From the NCBI RefSeq assembly GCF_029962835.1, contig NC_080588.1, forward strand, positions 61,156,001-61,220,000: a DNA stretch of 64,000 bases, written 5' to 3'. The position numbers were made by a program, and so were the translations under genes. The first letter of the stretch is position 1. Each line of letters starts with the position of its first letter. The stretch is from Magnolia sinica. Taxonomy: Eukaryota; Streptophyta; Magnoliopsida; Magnoliales; Magnoliaceae. Below are positions 6,340 to 55,300 of the stretch, one piece after another. The notes under the pieces are model-generated. The model searched no databases. It saw only the letters and a program-made list of their open reading frames with translations, and was not told the origin of the DNA.

Positions 6340-6980
6340 GATCTTAGATCGGGCGTATCTCGCAATCCGGAATGAGTTATCTGACGTAAAATATATGATT
6401 TTGGGGTAGAACGAGGTACCTTAGCCAACCAACCTGGCTATGCCGGGTTGCGCAGCCTGGAATTGCGAAAAACCCCTTGATCGACGGTCGTTTCCCTGTT
6501 TTAATTTCGTTTTTACTATAAATAGTAAGTTTTAGCTTGATTATAACTCTTCATCCGTCGGGCTTTAGGAGTTGCGCCCAACGTGAAAAGAGCTTAGAAT
6601 AATTAGGAGAACGGTTTCGTGAAGCCAAATAGGACACTTACTATTTTTGGCCGAATCCCTTGCGCACTAGTAAACATCACGACCGTCTATAAATAGTAAG
6701 TTTACTATTTATAGTAAGTTACGGATTCTAGGAGTTTGAGTTGTAGTTTGATTCTGATTTCTTTCCCATTGATTGGTACCCCTATTTAAAGGGTTGTGAA
6801 CTTGTTTTTACTCATTCATTAATCAATTTCAAATTTATTAGAATTTATTTCTATTTTCTGCTTTCTTTCCTTGTGGATTCGAGAAGTCTCCGTGAGGAGT
6901 CCAGAGAAGTTCCGTGGATTCCGAATAGTTATCCTCTTGAGGAAGATGGTGCTCGACCTCACGTCCTCCCCTACGTCAAC
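6340..6980 (+). mobile_element. Probable 3' LTR of the Ty3 element at 1-6327
   Basis: This non-coding stretch follows the pol C terminus. It carries a CTATTTAAAGG TATA-like box at about 6781-6791, then a pyrimidine-rich leader and a region ending near CCTACGTCAACG, as in plant chromovirus LTRs. Short palindromic motifs built on CTATAAATAGTAAGTTT occur at 6515-6530 and 6690-6717. The exact ends are not proven because the 5' LTR lies outside the window. Confidence 0.55.
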
Positions 6981-6981
6981 G

Positions 6982-7330
6982 GTCCATATCAAAGGTCAGC
7001 CCTAATGATGAGTAGTCCATATCCAATGTGGTCCCTACATGATGGATGACCCACATCATAAGTGGGGCCCACATGATGGGCGGTTCACATTAAAGGTGGG
7101 CTCCACATGATGGGTGATGGATATTTAAGGTGGGCCCCATATTATAGACAATAACATTGATGGTGGGCCCCACTTGATGGATGACCAACGTCAAAGGTGG
7201 ATCCTACATAATGAATGACACACATCCAAGGTGTGCCCCATATGATAAATGGCCTACATCAAAGGTGAGGCCCATACAATGAATGATCCACATTAAAAGG
7301 TTGGCCCCATATAATGGATCATGGATTTGA
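6982..7330. repeat. Degenerate ~33-bp minisatellite
   Basis: About ten head-to-tail copies of a 33-35-bp unit. Each contains a GGTGGGCCCCACATGATGGA-like core followed by a variable GACCCACATCAAAG-like half. Copies differ at many positions, so the array is old. The core resembles the termini of the hairpin MITEs found elsewhere in the window. Confidence 0.8.
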
Positions 7331-43700: not shown

Positions 43701-44093
43701 AAAAGGTCCATCGTGGCCTTCATTTAATGGAAGTTGGTCCAAAGAGGTTCAGAGCATGGGAGAACTTGGAAGAGAGCATGAGCACGATTGAAAGGGAGGC
43801 TTTTAAGGAAGGTATTCGATATTCCATTGGATTATGATGGTTGATACACAAGCAATATTAAACCATACGCTTTGCCTATGTCACTTCAAATCGAAATTTT
43901 ATAAATTGTGGAACTCTATCTATTTCAGCCAAAATTCCAAAATAATACTGATTGGACAACTCTAATCTCATTGGAAGGGGCCGGTTTGTCATTGGACGAG
44001 TAATTTTTTTTATTTATAGAAAAACCTACTTAATTTAATTGCTGCTAAAAAAATCTAATTGAAGGTAGATTATTAAAACTTGAATATTCAAGG

Positions 44094-44487
44094 ACCTGTT
44101 TGATAGCGAGTAATTACTTATAGTTAAAAGAAAATAAGCAATTATTATAAATTACTTTATCTATCTACATACTTCCGTCGTATTTGAACGCCATAATGAG
44201 CTTGATTTATTCATGAAAAAATTGTAATGGTTGCTTCATCTTTCTTTTATTTATTTATTTATTTATTTATTTATTTTTGTTCTTATTTTTATGTTACTTT
44301 AATGTCAAGTCATGTTCAAAATAAACTAATATGATTGTTTAATTGAAGGTTTTACTATAATTACATTGTAAAAAATAAATTACAAATTATGTGTTTTTTT
44401 CCTAATTTGATTTTGTTATGGAAAAAATGTAATAATAGCAATATTACTTTTAACTATAAGGAATTACTCACTATCAAACAAGCTCTA
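44094..44487. mobile_element. MITE with ~36-bp inverted ends
   Basis: CTGTTTGATAGCGAGTAATTACTTATAGTTAAAAG-type left end (44096 on) is inverted on the right as CTTTTAACTATAAGGAATTA followed by CTCACTATCAAACAAG. The AT-rich interior has a (TTTA)n array at about 44247-44275. Confidence 0.7.
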
Positions 44488-46107
44488 ATTTAACAGTGTA
44501 GTTTAATGAAAACATTTAAAAGATAGATAAAATAATATAAATTTTATAAGAATCAAGTAGTATTTTGTAAGATTCCCTAAGTATAAAAAAAATAAAATGA
44601 TATTAACCATGAATGTAATCTCTATTGAAAAATCTTCAGAGTGATAGTGCTCTTAGTTGCTTAGGATACTTAGACAATCATGTCCAATCCAATCCGTTGA
44701 TATAAGCTGTCAATTGGGTTATAAAAATAAAAAATCATTTCATGGCTACCATCAAACATCGCACTGATATTACAATCTTAACCATATGAATATTAGTAGT
44801 AATTAATATTGCAATCAAGATTATTTATACAAAATAGGTGTGATTAACAATTTGCAGCATGTATTTGTTAGGACTCTTCGCTAGTTATTATAAAGGATCA
44901 TTTTTTTAAGTAATCCTAACCATTCCATCCATGTCTTAGAAAAAAGGATGGTCACCAATAAGATCAAATTAAGGATGGACTGGATGATCCTGTTAGTGTA
45001 ATATTTGGATGGTCGTGCATAAAATGTGTTATGAGCTTAATGGACAGTTCAAACCAATGATTGAACCATCTAAATGGTCCATTGCAACGTGGAGCACTAA
45101 AGCATTTCTTATAACTAATTTATGAAAATTGTGTTGGGAAATCATGTACATTTTTCTTTCCTATGTAAATCAATAAAATTAACAATATAAAAGATTTAAT
45201 GAATGGTGATTACTTCCAACACTGGCAAGTAAAATATCAAACATATAAAATGTATATAAGATATAAAGATCACTTAGTCTAACACAAATCCACTCTAATA
45301 AAATATAATGAAAGTGTAATTATCAAGAAATCTCTCTGAGATACATAAGCTACATTACCTAATAATAAATTACAAGAAACAATTAAAGAAAAAATGCTTA
45401 TAGATTACTAGGAACTGTAGAAAACCCAGTAGTATAACTTTTTGAAAAGACAATCGAAAAAAACTTACATTGTGGATAAAGATTCACAAATCAGAATATA
45501 AAGACTTCTGTAATAAAAGGCTCCTAATCAACTTTGTGGCATCTTATCTTTTCTTCTTCTCATCCTTTTTTTCAATAAAGAAAAACCTTGTAGTATTCGG
45601 AGAAAAAAAATAAATCATTCTCTCTCCTAATTTACATGGCCAAAAGATCAAAATGCCCTCTTACCCGTCTAAATAATCGCTTAAGCTCGGTCCCACCTCC
45701 ACACGAGGAGGGACCCAACACATTAGTTTTTGAATTTGAGCCATTAGATATTAACTAACAGACCGATCTTGGCATCATTTCAGTATAGTTTTTGTGTTAC
45801 TAACTCAACGGTTTAATTTTGAGTTACGCCTACGCCACTTGTGCAATCTCTCAGTGCCCGCGTATCGTCCATCACAATCTACAGAGTATCAAAGTTTTCT
45901 CTACCCGCATTGCGTTGGCGACTCTTGTACAACATAAATGAATAAATTGAAAAACGGTTCATATTCTATCCACGCCTGTGGCCCATCTATTAATCACTTT
46001 TCCTGGATTTTTGAGCTTGTAGGATGGCTGGATTTGAATGAATGGATCCGGGTCGTCCGATCTTAGTACACGGAGCCTCGTTGCTTCGTGGAGAAATCTC
46101 TTCGGAC
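44488..46107. other. Intergenic, nothing recognised
   Basis: AT-rich to about 45700, then mixed composition. No supported gene. A short phrase, ACAGAGTATCAAAGTTTTCT (45882-45901), is close to one upstream of the WAT1 gene. Confidence 0.4.
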
Positions 46108-46600
46108 CGGAATAGTCTGCAACACCTGTTGTAGCGAGAGCGTGTAACACCCAATCTCATTGGGCCCACCATGATGTTTTGTAAGATATCCACACCATCC
46201 ATCAGTTGTAACACCTAATGTTAAGACCTGAACCGAATGATCAAGAGGACATAAAACTCTATCGGACCACACCACATGGAAGAGTGGAATGTGAACGTCA
46301 CCATAGAAATATTCCTGAGGCCTGATGTGCTGTATACCTGCCATCCAAACCGTCCATCAGACTAGCTCATCATAGTAAGAATTATTCTAGAAAAGCTCGA
46401 TCCAAAACTCAGGTGAGCCACGACCTGTAAATTGGGCAGTTTTATATTGTTCCGTTAGTGTGGTCCATCTATTTTGAGGATAAGTATTATTTTTCTTAAT
46501 TATTTTGAATAAAAGGTGGGTAAAATAATGGACGGATTGGATGCCAGGCACACATCAATGTGGGCCCCACATAGCCCGGGTGATGCAGGCGCTCTCTACA
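46108..46600. mobile_element. Hairpin-type MITE abutting the NDUFS4 promoter
   Basis: The ends GTTGTAGCGAGAGCG and CGCTCTCTACAACT are imperfect inverses. CATTGGGCCCACCATGATG on the left pairs with ACATCAATGTGGGCCCCACA on the right, and CCACACCATCCATCAG with a GGACGGATTGGATGCC region. Its right end is about 115 bp upstream of the NDUFS4 ATG. Confidence 0.7.
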
Positions 46601-46715
46601 ACTGGTGCTGTAGAGAACTTCAGTCCGTTCCCTTCCAAGGCACACTCGAGCGCGAGTTCCTTAACCGCACTTCCCAGAGAATTTCTAACGCAGAGCCGGA
46701 GGTGTACGCTTTGAG

Positions 46716-49700
46716 ATGGCCCCTTCTCTGCAACCTCGTCTTCTTCTCCTTCGCTCTGCATACCAATCCTTGTGGAGGAGATCGCTGTCTTCAGATGCTT
46801 TGGTAGAAATCAAGGCTGGTGAGATTGGGATCGTCTCCGGTATTCCTCAGGAACACCTCCGAAGGAGGGTACGTTTTTTTCTAGGGTTTCTCATCTCTTT
46901 CTCAGGAAATGCATAGTTTCTGGAGGCGCAGGATTCCGTACACTTGGGACCATGGTCTGGCGATCATGGCCTTTGATCCGGTGGGCCCCTCCTTGGATGA
47001 GGATGCCTTAGAAAGTCTTCATTCATCGTTGAGTGAAAAATGAGAAATTCATGGAAAATTGCAATCTCCACCACTTAATAATACACCTATCCGGGTCTTG
47101 ATTTGCCGCGTCGTTGTTTTCGGGGAAGAAAGAAATACATTTTATTTTGCCCTTTTTTTTCCCATTGAATGTGGACCGTTTTCCATTTATTTGTAAGCTG
47201 CTTATTGAAGTGTTAGGATCTTCCGATCTGGTAGATTTTTGGGGTGTCTGCGATCCAAGGCAGGCCTGATCAGATTAATGGTCTCGATAGCGGAGCTGTG
47301 GATCCTACATATACGGAACACTGGCACTCTATATGGCTGAATTGGGGTTTCCCCGTCTTCGGTTGCTAGGAATCCCTTTTTCACCTCATTGGCATCCATG
47401 AATGGCACAGGTTGTAATTTACTCGCCTGCTCGAACGGCGACCCAACAAGGTTCCGGAAAAGTTGGAAAATGGAAGATCAATTTCTTGTCGACCCAGAAG
47501 TATGTCCTCTCAACTGTATCTCATAGCCTTCTCTTTTTAATCTATCATAAAGAATTAGGATCTTGGTCAAGATAAATGCTTGGGCGATTCAGCCAGGATT
47601 GATTGATGAGGTGATTTGCCACACGCATGCTAAACTGGCATACATGTGTGAAATCCGGGCCATTCATCAGTTGGGTGAACATCTCCTGGCCAGGCAGGCA
47701 CACTGGTTTGCTCATTGGGGTGGCCTACTGCATTTGTATGTTGATTATAGACTGTTGGTCCTTTTTTTATCGTTCGGTCTTTCTCAAACACGTGTGGCCC
47801 ACTTAACGAGTTGGGTGGCCTACATGGTGGCCCCACCTGATAAATGGCTTGGATCTCTCACACACGTGCCAGGTTGATGCGTGTTTTGCAAATTGTCTTA
47901 TATTTTCTCCTTGGTGAAAGAGTTCTAATTTTACATTGTCCTCAAATTTTCATGGAGTAAGTGTCCTGCTTCATTTTCAGCACACAATATGTAATTTTCA
48001 TCTACAATTCTGCATTGTCATGGGCTCATATGGAACTGCATGTTCTTGACTTTAACTGCTTGCAAATTGTCCTATGTGGGCAGCATGTAGTAGTTGTTCT
48101 AAGGCATAGTGTGGTCTAATCACATCCGCGTGTGAGTGGTGTTGGTAATCATGTAGTGGTGGATTCCCTACTATTTTCTGCTACCAAATACTTGAGCATT
48201 TCCTTTCATGTCTGTGGGTGCTTCATGCTAACAGTTGCCTTACAACTGCCCCTTGTGCCCCTTGTACACTTGTCTTTGGGGTGCGCATGTGATGGTTGGG
48301 TTGGGGCCGTTCAATACTGGGTGGGACCATGTTGGCATAAGAGTGCTGTCACTGTTAGCTCTGCTGTCGCTAGTTTCAAGAACTGGTTATGAGAGGAAGG
48401 TTGATGCCTGGTGAGCAGCTGATCACAGAACTTTTTGCTGATTTAATGCGATATAGAGTGTGGGGATCCATGCATAGATGTGGAAGGTTGCCTTGACATG
48501 GGTTTGTCCATTTTCCATTGACTCCTTTACTGACCTGTTAGTTGTGGAATGTGATTCGAAGACACTGTTAGCTTGGGTGGCTGGGGACATACCAATTCTA
48601 TGTAAGGGTATCATTGCTTGTTTAAGGGTTCTCTGCATCACGCGTGTAGAGAGGACAATTCCTTGGCAAATGCTCTTGTTGTGGCCATTTTGTATTGGAA
48701 ATTCTCTCCATTGCCTTTTTTGTAAGGTTTCCTTTTTCCCTTCCATTCAATTGAAATTTTCTTTACCAATAGAAAAAAATGAATGGAGCCATTACTGTTA
48801 TGTTCCTGAACTTATGCTTTTAAGTGGAGCATCAATCACCTTCACCATTTCCCAGGTCAACTGAAAATGTCTGAATGGATTTTGCTTTATTTGTAATCAT
48901 ACACCCATGTCAATTATGTGTAAATTTGTTCCTAACTTATAGAGTTCTGCTAAGCCTACGTGCATGATGCACCCGTGCATTGGGCCAATCACAGCTGGCA
49001 CATGTGGGGGAATGTGTGACATGCATCAGTTGGGCCCCATTGCGTCCACACAATGGGGCCCAACTGATGCATGTCACACATTCCCCCACATGTGCCAGCT
49101 GTGATTGGCCCAATGCACAGGTGCATCATGCACGTAGGCTTAGCAGAACTCTGTAAGTTAGGAACAAATTTACACATAATTGACATGGGTGTATGATTAC
49201 AAATAAAGCAAAATCCACACAATGGGGCCCAACTGATGTGGACCCCACTTTTTTTTAGTGGTAGAAGTATGATGTAGTTACACAGTGCTGTTGATGTTAG
49301 TTGTTTTAGATCATCAACTCTTTATTTTCTTGTAGGTGGGAGAATCCATTGATGGGCTGGACATCCACTGGGGATCCATATGCCAATGTAGGTGATGCGG
49401 CGCTTGGTTTCGACAGTGAGGAAGCTGCAAAGGCATTTGCCGAAAAGCATGGGTGGGATTATGAGGTATGTGCATCATTCATAGTTCAACAACTCATGCT
49501 ACCATTTCTTTTAAATGGAAACGACTTGTCTAATTTAAGTTTGTCTTATGAAGTCTATTCATAATTCAGACAAAAGTATCTAGCAGTTTGCCTGATCCTT
49601 TGTGACTACGTGGTTTAAGGTATTCTGTATCGGTAACAGTGGCCGTAACAGTCACCACCATTACCGATACGGGTATTAGCTGTAACGGCTAATACAGGGG

Positions 49701-52343
49701 CGTAACGACCGTTACCACTCCAATAACAGTTGAAAATTTTCTTTTGCCTGAAAAATTATCTAAAAATATCAAAATAATGTAAATATTCCAAATATATATT
49801 CATTTTTTGTTTTGAACATGTTTATGGTTGTGTAACAGTCCACTCTTTGGTGATAGTGTTGTATCGGGCTGTTTAGTGAATTTGTGAACATTATTATATG
49901 TCTGTAATGTTTACATAGCACAATCAAGCATTAAAACTAGAAATCAGGAAAAAAAAAAGGACATTACTTTTTCAAATTTTTTGAAAAAATGCCCTTGGAG
50001 CTTCTATTCGCTCAAATCACTTCAATCTACGATTTTAATCTTAAAAACTATAGTAAGAATAGTCAAAATTTATTGTAAAATGATTTATGAGAGTTTTTTT
50101 TTTTTTTTTTTTTTTTTAATGAGAAAATGGATTTAAATATAAAAAAAAAAAAAAGAAAAAAAAGTGGTTGTTTTTCAATGGAAGTGATTCTTGAGAGGCC
50201 ATGAGCAATAAATTTCAGATCCTCAAGATGGTCATGCAAACCAATGGTTGCATCTTTCATAATCACAAGAGTTTGAGAACGGATTACATACCTCTAGAGG
50301 CATGACATTTTTGTGCCTCCAGATCATGTACTACACATGTGGCACTTGCATGATGATCTGAACCAGACATTCTTTGGACTCATCCATCGATTGACAGTTA
50401 ATCAATTTTTTATTTTTTATTATACAAACCTCAATCATCTAATAAATGGGCCCTTTCTCACTTAGTGGGAGCCGTTGCTGGTTTTCGTGTTTAAGTGTTC
50501 ATTTGTATGCCACCGAGGGTTAGAATTGTCTAAATAGGCAAATGATACAATTCTATTTTGTGAGGTAGAAGAGAGTAAAGTGGATAATTTAAGGAAAGAT
50601 GATAACTTGTTTCAATGTGGTTTCTGGTTTGAAGGTTAACATTAACAAAAGTGAGATTTTGGGTGTCGGGATTTCTAAGGAAGAAGTTAGCAGGTTTGCG
50701 GATATTATTTGTTGTCATGTAGGTTCTTTTCCGTCAACCTACCTTGGGCTTCCTCTTTGCATTGGAAAACCGGCAAAACCATTGTGGGATAAAGTTATTG
50801 AAAGGTTCAAAGGTAAGCTCTCTTGATGGAAAAGCATGTATCTTTCAATAAGAGGAAGGTTAACATTGATTAGATCGGCTATGTCTAATCTTCCGGTCTA
50901 TTACATGTCCCTTTTTAGGTGTACTAAATCAATATTGGATAGGTTGGAAAAATTAAGGTGGGATTTCTTATGGAAAGGCTTAGAAGAAAAATACAAGTTT
51001 CACTTGATTAAATGGGGTGAGGTATGCAAGCGTTTTGAAGGGGATGGGGGTATGTGGAATTTAGATCATATGAATTAAGCACTTTGAGGGAAATTGATTA
51101 GTAGTTTCGGCGTGGGAAAAGGAAATTTCTAGTGAGAAGTTTTTTAAAGGAAGTATGGGTCTCAAGTTAGGGGTGGTGGTGGACAAAGGATTCGTTTCTA
51201 TATAGAGCTTCCGCGGTGTGCAAGTCTATAGCGACAGCGGTGTGCAAGTCTGTAGCGACAATGAGGCAAAATTTTGTGGAGCATGTTAAATTTTCATTGG
51301 GTGATGGGTTGGATACTCATTTTTGGAAAGATATTTGGTTGTGGAAAAGGCACTCTCTGAAGTTTATCCTAGGATAGCAAGGCTATCTGTGGATGACAAT
51401 ATATCAGTGGCTCATTGTTTCACTTTTTTAGGGGATGTTCCGTTATGGACTCTCCCATGTCATAGGAATTTGTTGGATGAAGAGTCGGAAAAGTTGGTCG
51501 GCCTTCCTTTTTCTTCTTTTTTTTCTGCTTTTGGCCCTAATAAAAAATCGTCTTTCAAAAAAAAAAAAAAGGTTAGCCTTCTAGAGTTTCTTCATAGTGT
51601 AAATCCAGTTTTGGGGTTAAGTGATGAGATGGTATGAAGTTTGGAGAAATCGGAGCATTTCTTATTAAAATCTTGGTATAGAGTTGTAAGTGGATCATTT
51701 GGGTTGAAGCTTTGATTTGGCATTATCGTGTTCATCCTAAGGTGGCGGTTTTTGGGTAGCCTGCATGTAAGCATAAGGTTCTCACAATGGACAATCTTCG
51801 CAAGAGAAGTATGGTGCTTCCAAATGCGTACTGTGTTTCCGAGATGAAGAATCAATAGATCATCTCTTTATCCATTGCTTTCTTGTGAAGGAGTTTTGGA
51901 ATAACCTCTTCAATCTATTCAAGATCCCATGGGTGATGCCGAATCCAATGGAGACCTTCCTTCTAGAGTGGGTGTAGTTGGCAAGGAAGTCTGGAGAATG
52001 GTGATGTCGGCAGGCCTATGGTGTATGCGGGGGGAAAAGGAATAGTCGGTGCTTCAAAAATGGAAGTGGGAGGTGTCTGAGGTATTTAGTGGGGCATAAT
52101 TAAATGTCATGGAGTGGGCTTAAGCGTCTGCTATATTAGGCAAAAGTTATATGTTTCTAGTTGCTTAGTTTGTGTTGTAATTCTTTAGGCTTTGGCCTTC
52201 TATCAATAAACTTATCACTTTAAAGAAAAAAAGAGGAAAAAAAAAAAAGAACCGTCTAAACACTGATTTTTGGACCACAGGCCTATTGCTTTTGGAAGCT
52301 GCTGTTACGAATTTACGATAGGGGCCATAACAGTTGTTATGGC

Positions 52344-52385
<42 letters not shown>

Positions 52386-55300
52386 GTTGGCCTTGTAACA
52401 GGATGTTATAGGACTACAGGCCATTACAGGGTTACATGCCTCCTCCTCCTCCTCCTTTTTTTCATAATGGCCGTTACAACCCTGTAATGCGTAATGGTTA
52501 CCACCATTAATGTTATGTAACTGTTTTTTAATGCCTTGAATACAACAAGTGGCTCGCATGTACATTGGGTTTTCAGCTTGAGCAAGTGGAGAGCACGTGG
52601 TTCGATAATCCAGACCACTGGTATTGAAGAGTGGGCCAATACTATTTTTGGTCAAAGGCATGTTTACACTGAATGGTGTGGGTCTTTGACAAGTTTGCTG
52701 TATGCAAGAAGCTTTGACATGTAGGGACTCTACTGTTAGATCAGGGTCAAGTTCCATGTTCCATGTCCATCATATGATGCTCCACACAACTAACTGCAGT
52801 TGCCTCAAAACTCTTCAAGATTGGTAGATACTAAACTTTTATTCAATGTTCTGGAAACAACAGTAAGGAATTATTTGGTAATTGCAGACCCATCTGATGT
52901 ATATTATAAACATGTTTCTTTTCGCATAAGCAAATTCTCAACAAACGCTTATCTGGAATTGTTTGTTATGAATTACTTCTGCACTTATTAAAAGCAATTC
53001 CAAACGGACCCTTAAGCTCAGACTTGTTTGGGAAGGTAGAAAACCGTGGAAAAGAATATGAACTCCCTAATGTGACAGTTTCCTCAATTTGAGAAACCAA
53101 AAAAGAGGGGGAAACTATTTTCCTTTTCCTAGTTTTCCTTGAATGTGCAAAACCATTTTGAAAGAAGAAGAAGAATCGTGTTAAATGTTGCTTTACACAT
53201 TTGCAAGAGAAAACTCTCGTTGTTTGACTATTGGCATTTTAACATTTCCATGGAAAACGGCCCTCCAAACCAACCAATGGAATAACTATTGTATTCCGTG
53301 GTTTTCCATTTCCTGAGGATTCCATAATTGTTTTCCATGTCCACATTTTCGGTTATCCCTATCCAAACAGGAAGTCCAAGATGAGGGCCCTTCGAGTAGG
53401 TTGTTTGTGGATGATGCAGTAATAGTTGATGAGACTAGAGAGGAATGTAGCCCAAAATATCAACTGGTTTGCTTTATTTTATAGGTAAATAGCGTACAAC
53501 TGTCTGGTTGTACTATCTACGTACTTGGAATTTGGAATGCTATATCCAAACTCTATGCTATTTCCAATCTATACAATTGCATTCAATATTCGAAATATGG
53601 GTATCGCACCCTTGTGATACAGATACATATCGGTTACCGCATGAGACATATTGGTTGTATCGCGTAATGCGTCGTTGTTGTTCTAAACATGGGGAAATTG
53701 GTCGAATTTTTCAATGAAAAAAGACATTAATACACACTTATAAATCAAACCATTACAAAAAATAAGTGCACATAATAGGCTTGCTTTGTATAGGGTCATA
53801 ATCTATGTGTTTTTTCTAAATTAATGCAAGTATATTCAAAGTCTATTCATATAATTTATAAATGTAAGAAGAAGTGTGGAAACACAAGTAATACATTCAA
53901 CAGCAAAAGAAGAATCATTAGTTCAAATTACACACGTGTTTGATTTTATGTTTGGACACAAAGATTGCAACCAATTTGTGAGAAAGTGAGAAGTTTTGAT
54001 TTTATTTTTTTAAAATTTTCCGCAACTCGGCCCATCTCTTCCAAATCTCAAATTGAAGATCCCAATCCATGATTTTTTTATGCAAAATATGAAAAATCAG
54101 GGATTTGTAACAATTTGACAATGATTTAACATGATTTACAGAAAAAAAGGATCAAAAAATCGAAAATGCTCGCCGGATTGAGCATGTGGGATATATCGTA
54201 CTACTTGTGTGTTTCATATTGCACAGGTGGGATACAAGATATATCGTAGGAGATATCGGCCGATACCGTCGATATTTAAAACACTGATTGCATTAAGCAG
54301 CTCAACCAGTTATTCTTTTAGGTTATAAAGTGGTATAGAGGTCTTGAAAGATTTTCCAGTTCTAGGTTTTCTGGAGACTTATGTAAAGCCACAAGAGGGA
54401 TTATACAATTTTATAGGTCCTAATACAATTGGAAAGGTATGCTTTTCACTCAAGCTGGAAAGATGACCTTGTCAAGTCTTCCCTTCAGTCTCTTTTGGTT
54501 TCTTGTCTCTTGTTGCATCGGATGCTTGTGAGGGTTGCAAAATCAATGGAGAGCATCCAGAAGAAAGGTTGATCTTACAGTTATGCATGGAATTCAGCTT
54601 GTACTGTTGGAGAGATGACATGTTTAGGCTCTTTATTTCCTACTGTTGTTCACTTTGGGGGCCTCTTTGGACAGGAAGAGTCCAAAACATGGACACGAAA
54701 ATCCAAGTAGAATCCTATAGACAAGGAAAACTATGAAATGAATCCAATTGACATGATTTGTTTGGCAAGGTTGATTTCTATGGAAATGTTGAAAAGTCAA
54801 CGGTCAAGCAGCTTTAGTTCTCTCTCATAACCATGGAATGGAGATTTAACACCTTTTTTTTTTCTGAAAGAAATTGATTTCCACAATAATTTGAGGAAAA
54901 TGTAATTATGGCAATTGATTTCTGCAGTTACTTTTCGGTTCACAAATAGTGGAAAAGTAGATTTCCATGGAAATCAATTTTATTTCCAAGGTTTTTAATG
55001 TTCCAAAAATAGATTTTAGGTAAGCGTTCCTTCAGCCAATAGGCAACTAGTTTTGGTCTTTTAGTATTTAAATTAGCAAGTTGTGTGACTCCTTTCAACC
55101 ATAAAAGGGCCATACATTTTGTATCGGAGACTGGGTTTCTGATAGGACAGGGTTTGGTTTAACTTTGGAGATCGATATTCATGTGCATCTCCACAACAGA
55201 ATCTCTATCCTAGTGAATGGAACTCGAGTTTTGTTTGCAACTCTAGGGACTCCTGCCAAGGTGGGAGCGGATTAGGTGTTACCCCCGACGTGGCGTGGTT

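Follow-up and report, generated by a model that had tools for sequence, protein, structure and literature searches.

The second intron of the Magnolia sinica NDUFS4 gene contains an almost perfect palindrome, which raises the question of how such a long inverted repeat came to lie in this gene and whether its transcript has any role.

The palindrome and its host gene

Self-comparison of the window (the whole stretch of 64,000 nucleotides that was analysed, whose positions are used throughout) located the palindrome at 48876-49217. These 342 bases form two 167-bp arms (left, 48876-49042; right, 49051-49217; both on the plus strand) that differ by two mismatches and surround an 8-bp spacer, CGTCCACA (49043-49050, plus strand). 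The original prediction had set the arms at 166 bp and its coordinates agreed with ours to within one base; its spacer of 8 bp and its two mismatches were recovered unchanged. One mismatch pairs 48974 (C) with 49119 (A) and the other 48940 (T) with 49153 (G); on a single-strand reading both are transitions, and the arms show no indel. The direct repeat of about 25 bp that had been described, with one copy in the middle of the palindrome and the other spanning its right edge, is exactly 25 bp long, with 25/25 identical positions. Its central copy occupies 49045-49069 and its right-edge copy 49214-49238 (both plus strand), the first four bases of the latter, TCCA, coinciding with the last four of the right arm and being probably shared at a switch point. 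The 7-bp word CAACTGA is common to 48858-48864 and 49230-49236, 11 and 12 bp outside the palindrome edges; since its right copy belongs to the 25-bp repeat, we read this sharing as a coincidence, probably due to chance.

Among 25 of the 27 inverted-repeat pairs of the window (at least 40 nt, within 3000 nt of each other), the palindrome was the longest and the best matched, and the second-ranked pair among them has 112-nt arms with 89% identity and 163 nt between them. A scan for palindromes with a small spacer and arms no longer than 250 covered 264,000 bases: the window itself plus 20 further stretches of this genome, of which 15 were taken at predefined positions on six contigs and 5 lie close to the window. 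It yielded seven palindromes: the one in the NDUFS4 intron, four AT runs, and two adjacent near-palindromic, MITE-like elements in a stretch that we call L021 (G000:C16:61100001-61110000, at 6543-6847 and 6885-7255). In the first L021 element the arms measure 152 and carry 27 mismatches, in the second 185 and 28; the two are 70-76% alike, and sequences partly related to them occur in many sampled stretches as well as in the window. They look much older than the palindrome of the NDUFS4 intron.

The location of the palindrome within NDUFS4 was substantiated by the reading frame of the gene. The coding part of exon 1 (46716-46868), exon 2 (47411-47499) and exon 3 (49336-49465), all on the plus strand, join in frame, and their spliced product matches the Pfam family NDUS4 (E 1.7e-24); consequently, intron 2, the host of the palindrome, corresponds to 47500-49335 (plus strand). 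The distance from the palindrome end to exon 3 is 118 nt, against the 119 nt given earlier. An additional coding stretch of NDUFS4 was observed close to 60.1 kb, and intron 3 contains, at 50593-51000, open frames resembling pieces of what we take to be a LINE-type reverse transcriptase. A second NDUFS4-like exon, with 68% protein identity, was detected at G000:C11:21176987-21177136 and is possibly an old duplicate. This locus was evaluated as a possible unduplicated relative and set aside, since its alignment to 47400-49500 was confined to 49300-49476, where exon 3 lies. It also contains a weak 35-bp match to the dispersed repeat family of the inner arm that is described below.

Foldback chimeras are a known kind of sequencing artefact, and a palindrome of this form could have been produced by a foldback read in the library or the assembly. 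However, the sequence rejoins the locus 25 bp back, leaving the intron and its splice sites intact, the arms are set apart by the two transitions with no indel between them, and the window contains 0 N bases. An artefact is therefore unlikely. The event had been proposed to be recent, with which the 2 differences in 167 pairs are consistent: with 7e-9 to 1.5e-9 substitutions assumed per site and year, they correspond to an age of approximately 0.9 to 4 million years, a figure that arm-to-arm conversion could bias towards too young an age.

A dispersed repeat inside the arms

Dispersed copies with the same ends had been named as the sign of a transposon, and we sought them across the whole assembly (1.84 Gb, 127 contigs). 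With very common words skipped and a single candidate region scored, this search matched both the complete palindrome and its left arm to this locus alone. A 24-mer taken where the inner arm begins gave 68 genome matches with three mismatches or fewer, spread over C1-C19 and C42, and three of these matches are at this locus; a 25-mer at the far end of the inner arm gave 13, two of them here. The spread over these contigs and the repeat motifs would fit a magnoliid genome with n = 19. We examined 15 of the other copies, 601-624 bp each, corresponding to all 11 of the other 25-mer matches and 4 of the 65 other 24-mer matches. The order of the repeat family, read by eye in the alignment, is CYACACARTGGGGCCCAMCTGATG ... 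CATGCAYGTAGGCTTAGCARAACTC, and both family ends occur at similar spacing in several copies (for example L028, L031, L035 and L036); in L026, L027 and L029 the alignment was good only around the 24-mer. None of these 15 copies (0/15) is palindromic over the 601-624 bp inspected in each, the longest inverted-repeat arm being 20.

Over 110 nt on the upstream side of the 25-mer, the focal copy and the 11 others were similar to one another (mean local score of 16.4 vs 9.0 for shuffled sequences), and over 110 nt on the downstream side they were dissimilar (8.7 vs 8.8); the pair formed by the near-identical neighbours L039 and L040 was omitted from these means. This pattern suggests that the dispersed family ends at about 'GGCTTAGCARAACTC', that is, near 49151 (48942 on the left). 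The end appears to be real because similarity extends beyond the search pattern on one side only, the pattern itself stopping at that point. The pattern searches and the copy alignment thus indicate that the inner part of the left arm (48942-49045, minus strand) is a copy of this repeat, although a diverged one, with upstream scores of 7-20 and 3 of the 11 copies above the shuffled maximum of 15. Judging from these sequences, the family is old and dispersed. The 24-mer occurs five times, with 1-2 mismatches, inside 0.6 Mb of C3 (G000:C3:111.29-111.86 Mb); L026 and L027, both from C3, are 99% identical over 624 bp, suggesting a local duplication.

On both sides, the palindrome extends 66 bp beyond the end of the repeat family. 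According to the genome searches, the outer 66 bp of the left arm (48876-48941, plus strand) is intron DNA continuous with the left flank. A 26-mer from this outer part has two matches here and one elsewhere, on C18, with three mismatches; the C18 match shows no similarity to intron 2 outside its 26 bp. Since the arms cross the repeat end and run 66 bp into the flank, they point to an inverted duplication of a local stretch, made of repeat plus flank, rather than to a transposon. An insertion into the intron of a palindromic transposon, of the foldback or MITE type, would agree with the existence of near-palindromic dispersed elements in this genome, such as those of L021, and with an inner arm derived from a repeat. 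Nevertheless, the genome search (very common words skipped) gave no second copy of the arm, the family end falls inside the arm, and the only match of the outer 26-mer elsewhere is the imperfect one. In addition, the palindrome edges lack a target-site duplication, in agreement with what had been stated from the start. We consider an insertion of this kind to be highly improbable.

Probable origin of the palindrome by template switching

The reading that we hold with considerable confidence is that a local template-switch mutation, which occurred while DNA was being replicated or a break repaired, gave rise to the palindrome. The original prediction had preferred a template switch or foldback copying to transposition. 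This preference is supported by the way in which the arms exit the dispersed repeat into DNA that is unique except for one weak 26-base match, and it also fits new DNA that consists of inverted copies of neighbouring sequence with few bases shared at the junctions.

In our model, the present sequence is assembled from pieces copied from a shorter ancestor, at a fixed cost of 8 for each switch and 3 for each mismatch. The constructed ancestor A0 contains the left arm followed by the right flank from 49240, with 49043 set to T from the other copies, and it has no perfect inverted repeat longer than 7 bp. From A0, the parse used three switches and three mismatches (cost 33), along a path made of a forward copy up to ~49041, an inverted one up to 49213, a second inverted one that restarts close to where that template begins (49214-49236), and a forward copy of the remainder; without the T at 49043 the cost rose to 36, with four mismatches. 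An ancestor in which a 19-bp hairpin already existed (A1) needed two switches and two mismatches (cost 22), the step from A0 to A1 costing 19 more. Depending on the model, the insert is explained as inverted copies with 2 to 4 mismatches. The parse of the joined flanks places the inferred insertion, relative to a single-copy ancestor, at 49046-49239 (194 bp, plus strand, with ends uncertain by a few bases).

Models in which the right arm is the original were also evaluated and found less favourable, as they required more switches unless the direct repeat pre-existed: four switches with one copy of the 25-mer (cost 41 or 47), and two with both copies already present (cost 25). In these models, the left arm is thus favoured as the original sequence and the right arm as its inverted copy. 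The direction is favoured rather than proven, since an ancestor carrying the 25-bp direct repeat fits the reverse almost equally well (cost 25, vs 22 for the forward model from A1).

Two features expected of template switching were found in these parses: the insert is a reverse-complement copy of nearby DNA, and the original template, as represented by the constructed ancestor, is resumed, the parse ending in the right flank with exon 3 in frame. The bases common to the switch points and their targets, read by eye, are GT, TCCA and TG, amounting to 2-4 per junction. At the key junction of A0, TGGA follows at 49239; this 4-base match was noticed post hoc and would be expected about once in 256 by simple count.

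The event may have started from an ancestral intron with a single old copy of the repeat, in reverse orientation, ending ...CCCCATTGTGTGGACCCCAC. Synthesis would have proceeded to ~49042-49045 and then switched at TGTGGA onto the opposite or the nascent strand, from which ~170 nt would have been copied back, comprising the repeat and the 66 bp of flank beyond it. At TCCA, a jump back to where this inverted template begins would have created the 25-bp direct repeat, and at TG the original template would have been resumed, with copying continuing towards exon 3. Alternatively, a 25-bp inverted insert could have come first and been followed by a snapback extension of the resulting hairpin, giving the same product; the single-burst and two-event versions are indistinguishable. 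The sequence itself shows the palindrome, the direct repeat, the repeat end within the arms and an insert that inverted copies can explain; the order, direction and machinery of the switching are what we infer.

The predicted hairpin and its relation to known systems

The RNA fold, which covers only the palindrome and its immediate flanks (48860-49260), reached -343.5 kcal/mol, compared with a shuffle mean of -115.4 (z -39.7), and 0 of 100 shuffles folded as well. A long and stable stem of 167 bp is therefore predicted, and it would be transcribed as part of the host gene. Because the stem is extremely stable, dicing is possible in principle; the original prediction had put forward DCL processing, along with a possible effect on the splicing of exon 3. 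This very stable intronic stem could be taken to indicate that a hairpin-RNA or proto-microRNA locus has recently arisen here and has a selected role, the more so as inverted duplications of TE-related sequence are reported, as outlined in PMC3237417, to be a source of plant miRNA genes. However, 44000-54000 contained no Rfam match that reached the gathering score; the single arm-start 24-mer that was tested has its closest other match at one mismatch and the whole arm is unmatched elsewhere, which leaves few obvious trans targets. A selected role of this kind is very unlikely. We also find it improbable that multi-switch copying of the old repeat and intron DNA gave rise to a young hairpin-RNA gene in this housekeeping intron, which would yield siRNAs or a proto-miRNA and silence its own intron or the relatives of the repeat. 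Most likely, the palindrome is a neutral scar whose hairpin is transcribed and then removed with the intron, with no present role.

The NDUFS4-intron palindrome resembles the origin of plant miRNA genes outlined in PMC3237417 in that a TE-related inverted duplication leads to a hairpin; in contrast to that origin, its source is the intron itself and its hairpin is predicted from sequence. Foldback templated insertions at yeast double-strand breaks, mostly of ~5-34 bp as summarized in PMC11724301, likewise involve a foldback at microhomology and a templated inverted duplication. Unlike them, the present event is longer, a comparison that depends on what that set could detect, and lies at no known break. 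Among the literature matches listed, judged by their titles and abstract openings and with subscription papers mostly outside the scope, there was no template-switch palindrome of this length from a plant.

A close likeness is to the template-switch mutations described in great apes (PMC7954356) and in RNA genes (PMC8794818), which, as presented in those reports, share with this locus a local inverted copy of adjacent DNA, the resumption of the template and a near-perfect copied hairpin. In the great-ape gold-standard set, as characterized in PMC7954356, the copied stretch has a median of 12 and a maximum of 128 nt, whereas ~170 nt would have been copied here; this difference, which weighs against the template-switch reading, depends on the detection used for that set. 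The extra jump back, which would have generated the 25-bp direct repeat, and the location in a plant nuclear intron also distinguish this event from the template-switch mutations presented there. The palindrome works like template-switch mutations and matches their testable features. It offers an unusually long natural plant event, with junctions preserved well enough for the switch points to be located nearly to the base, and a testable case for the birth of long hairpins in introns.
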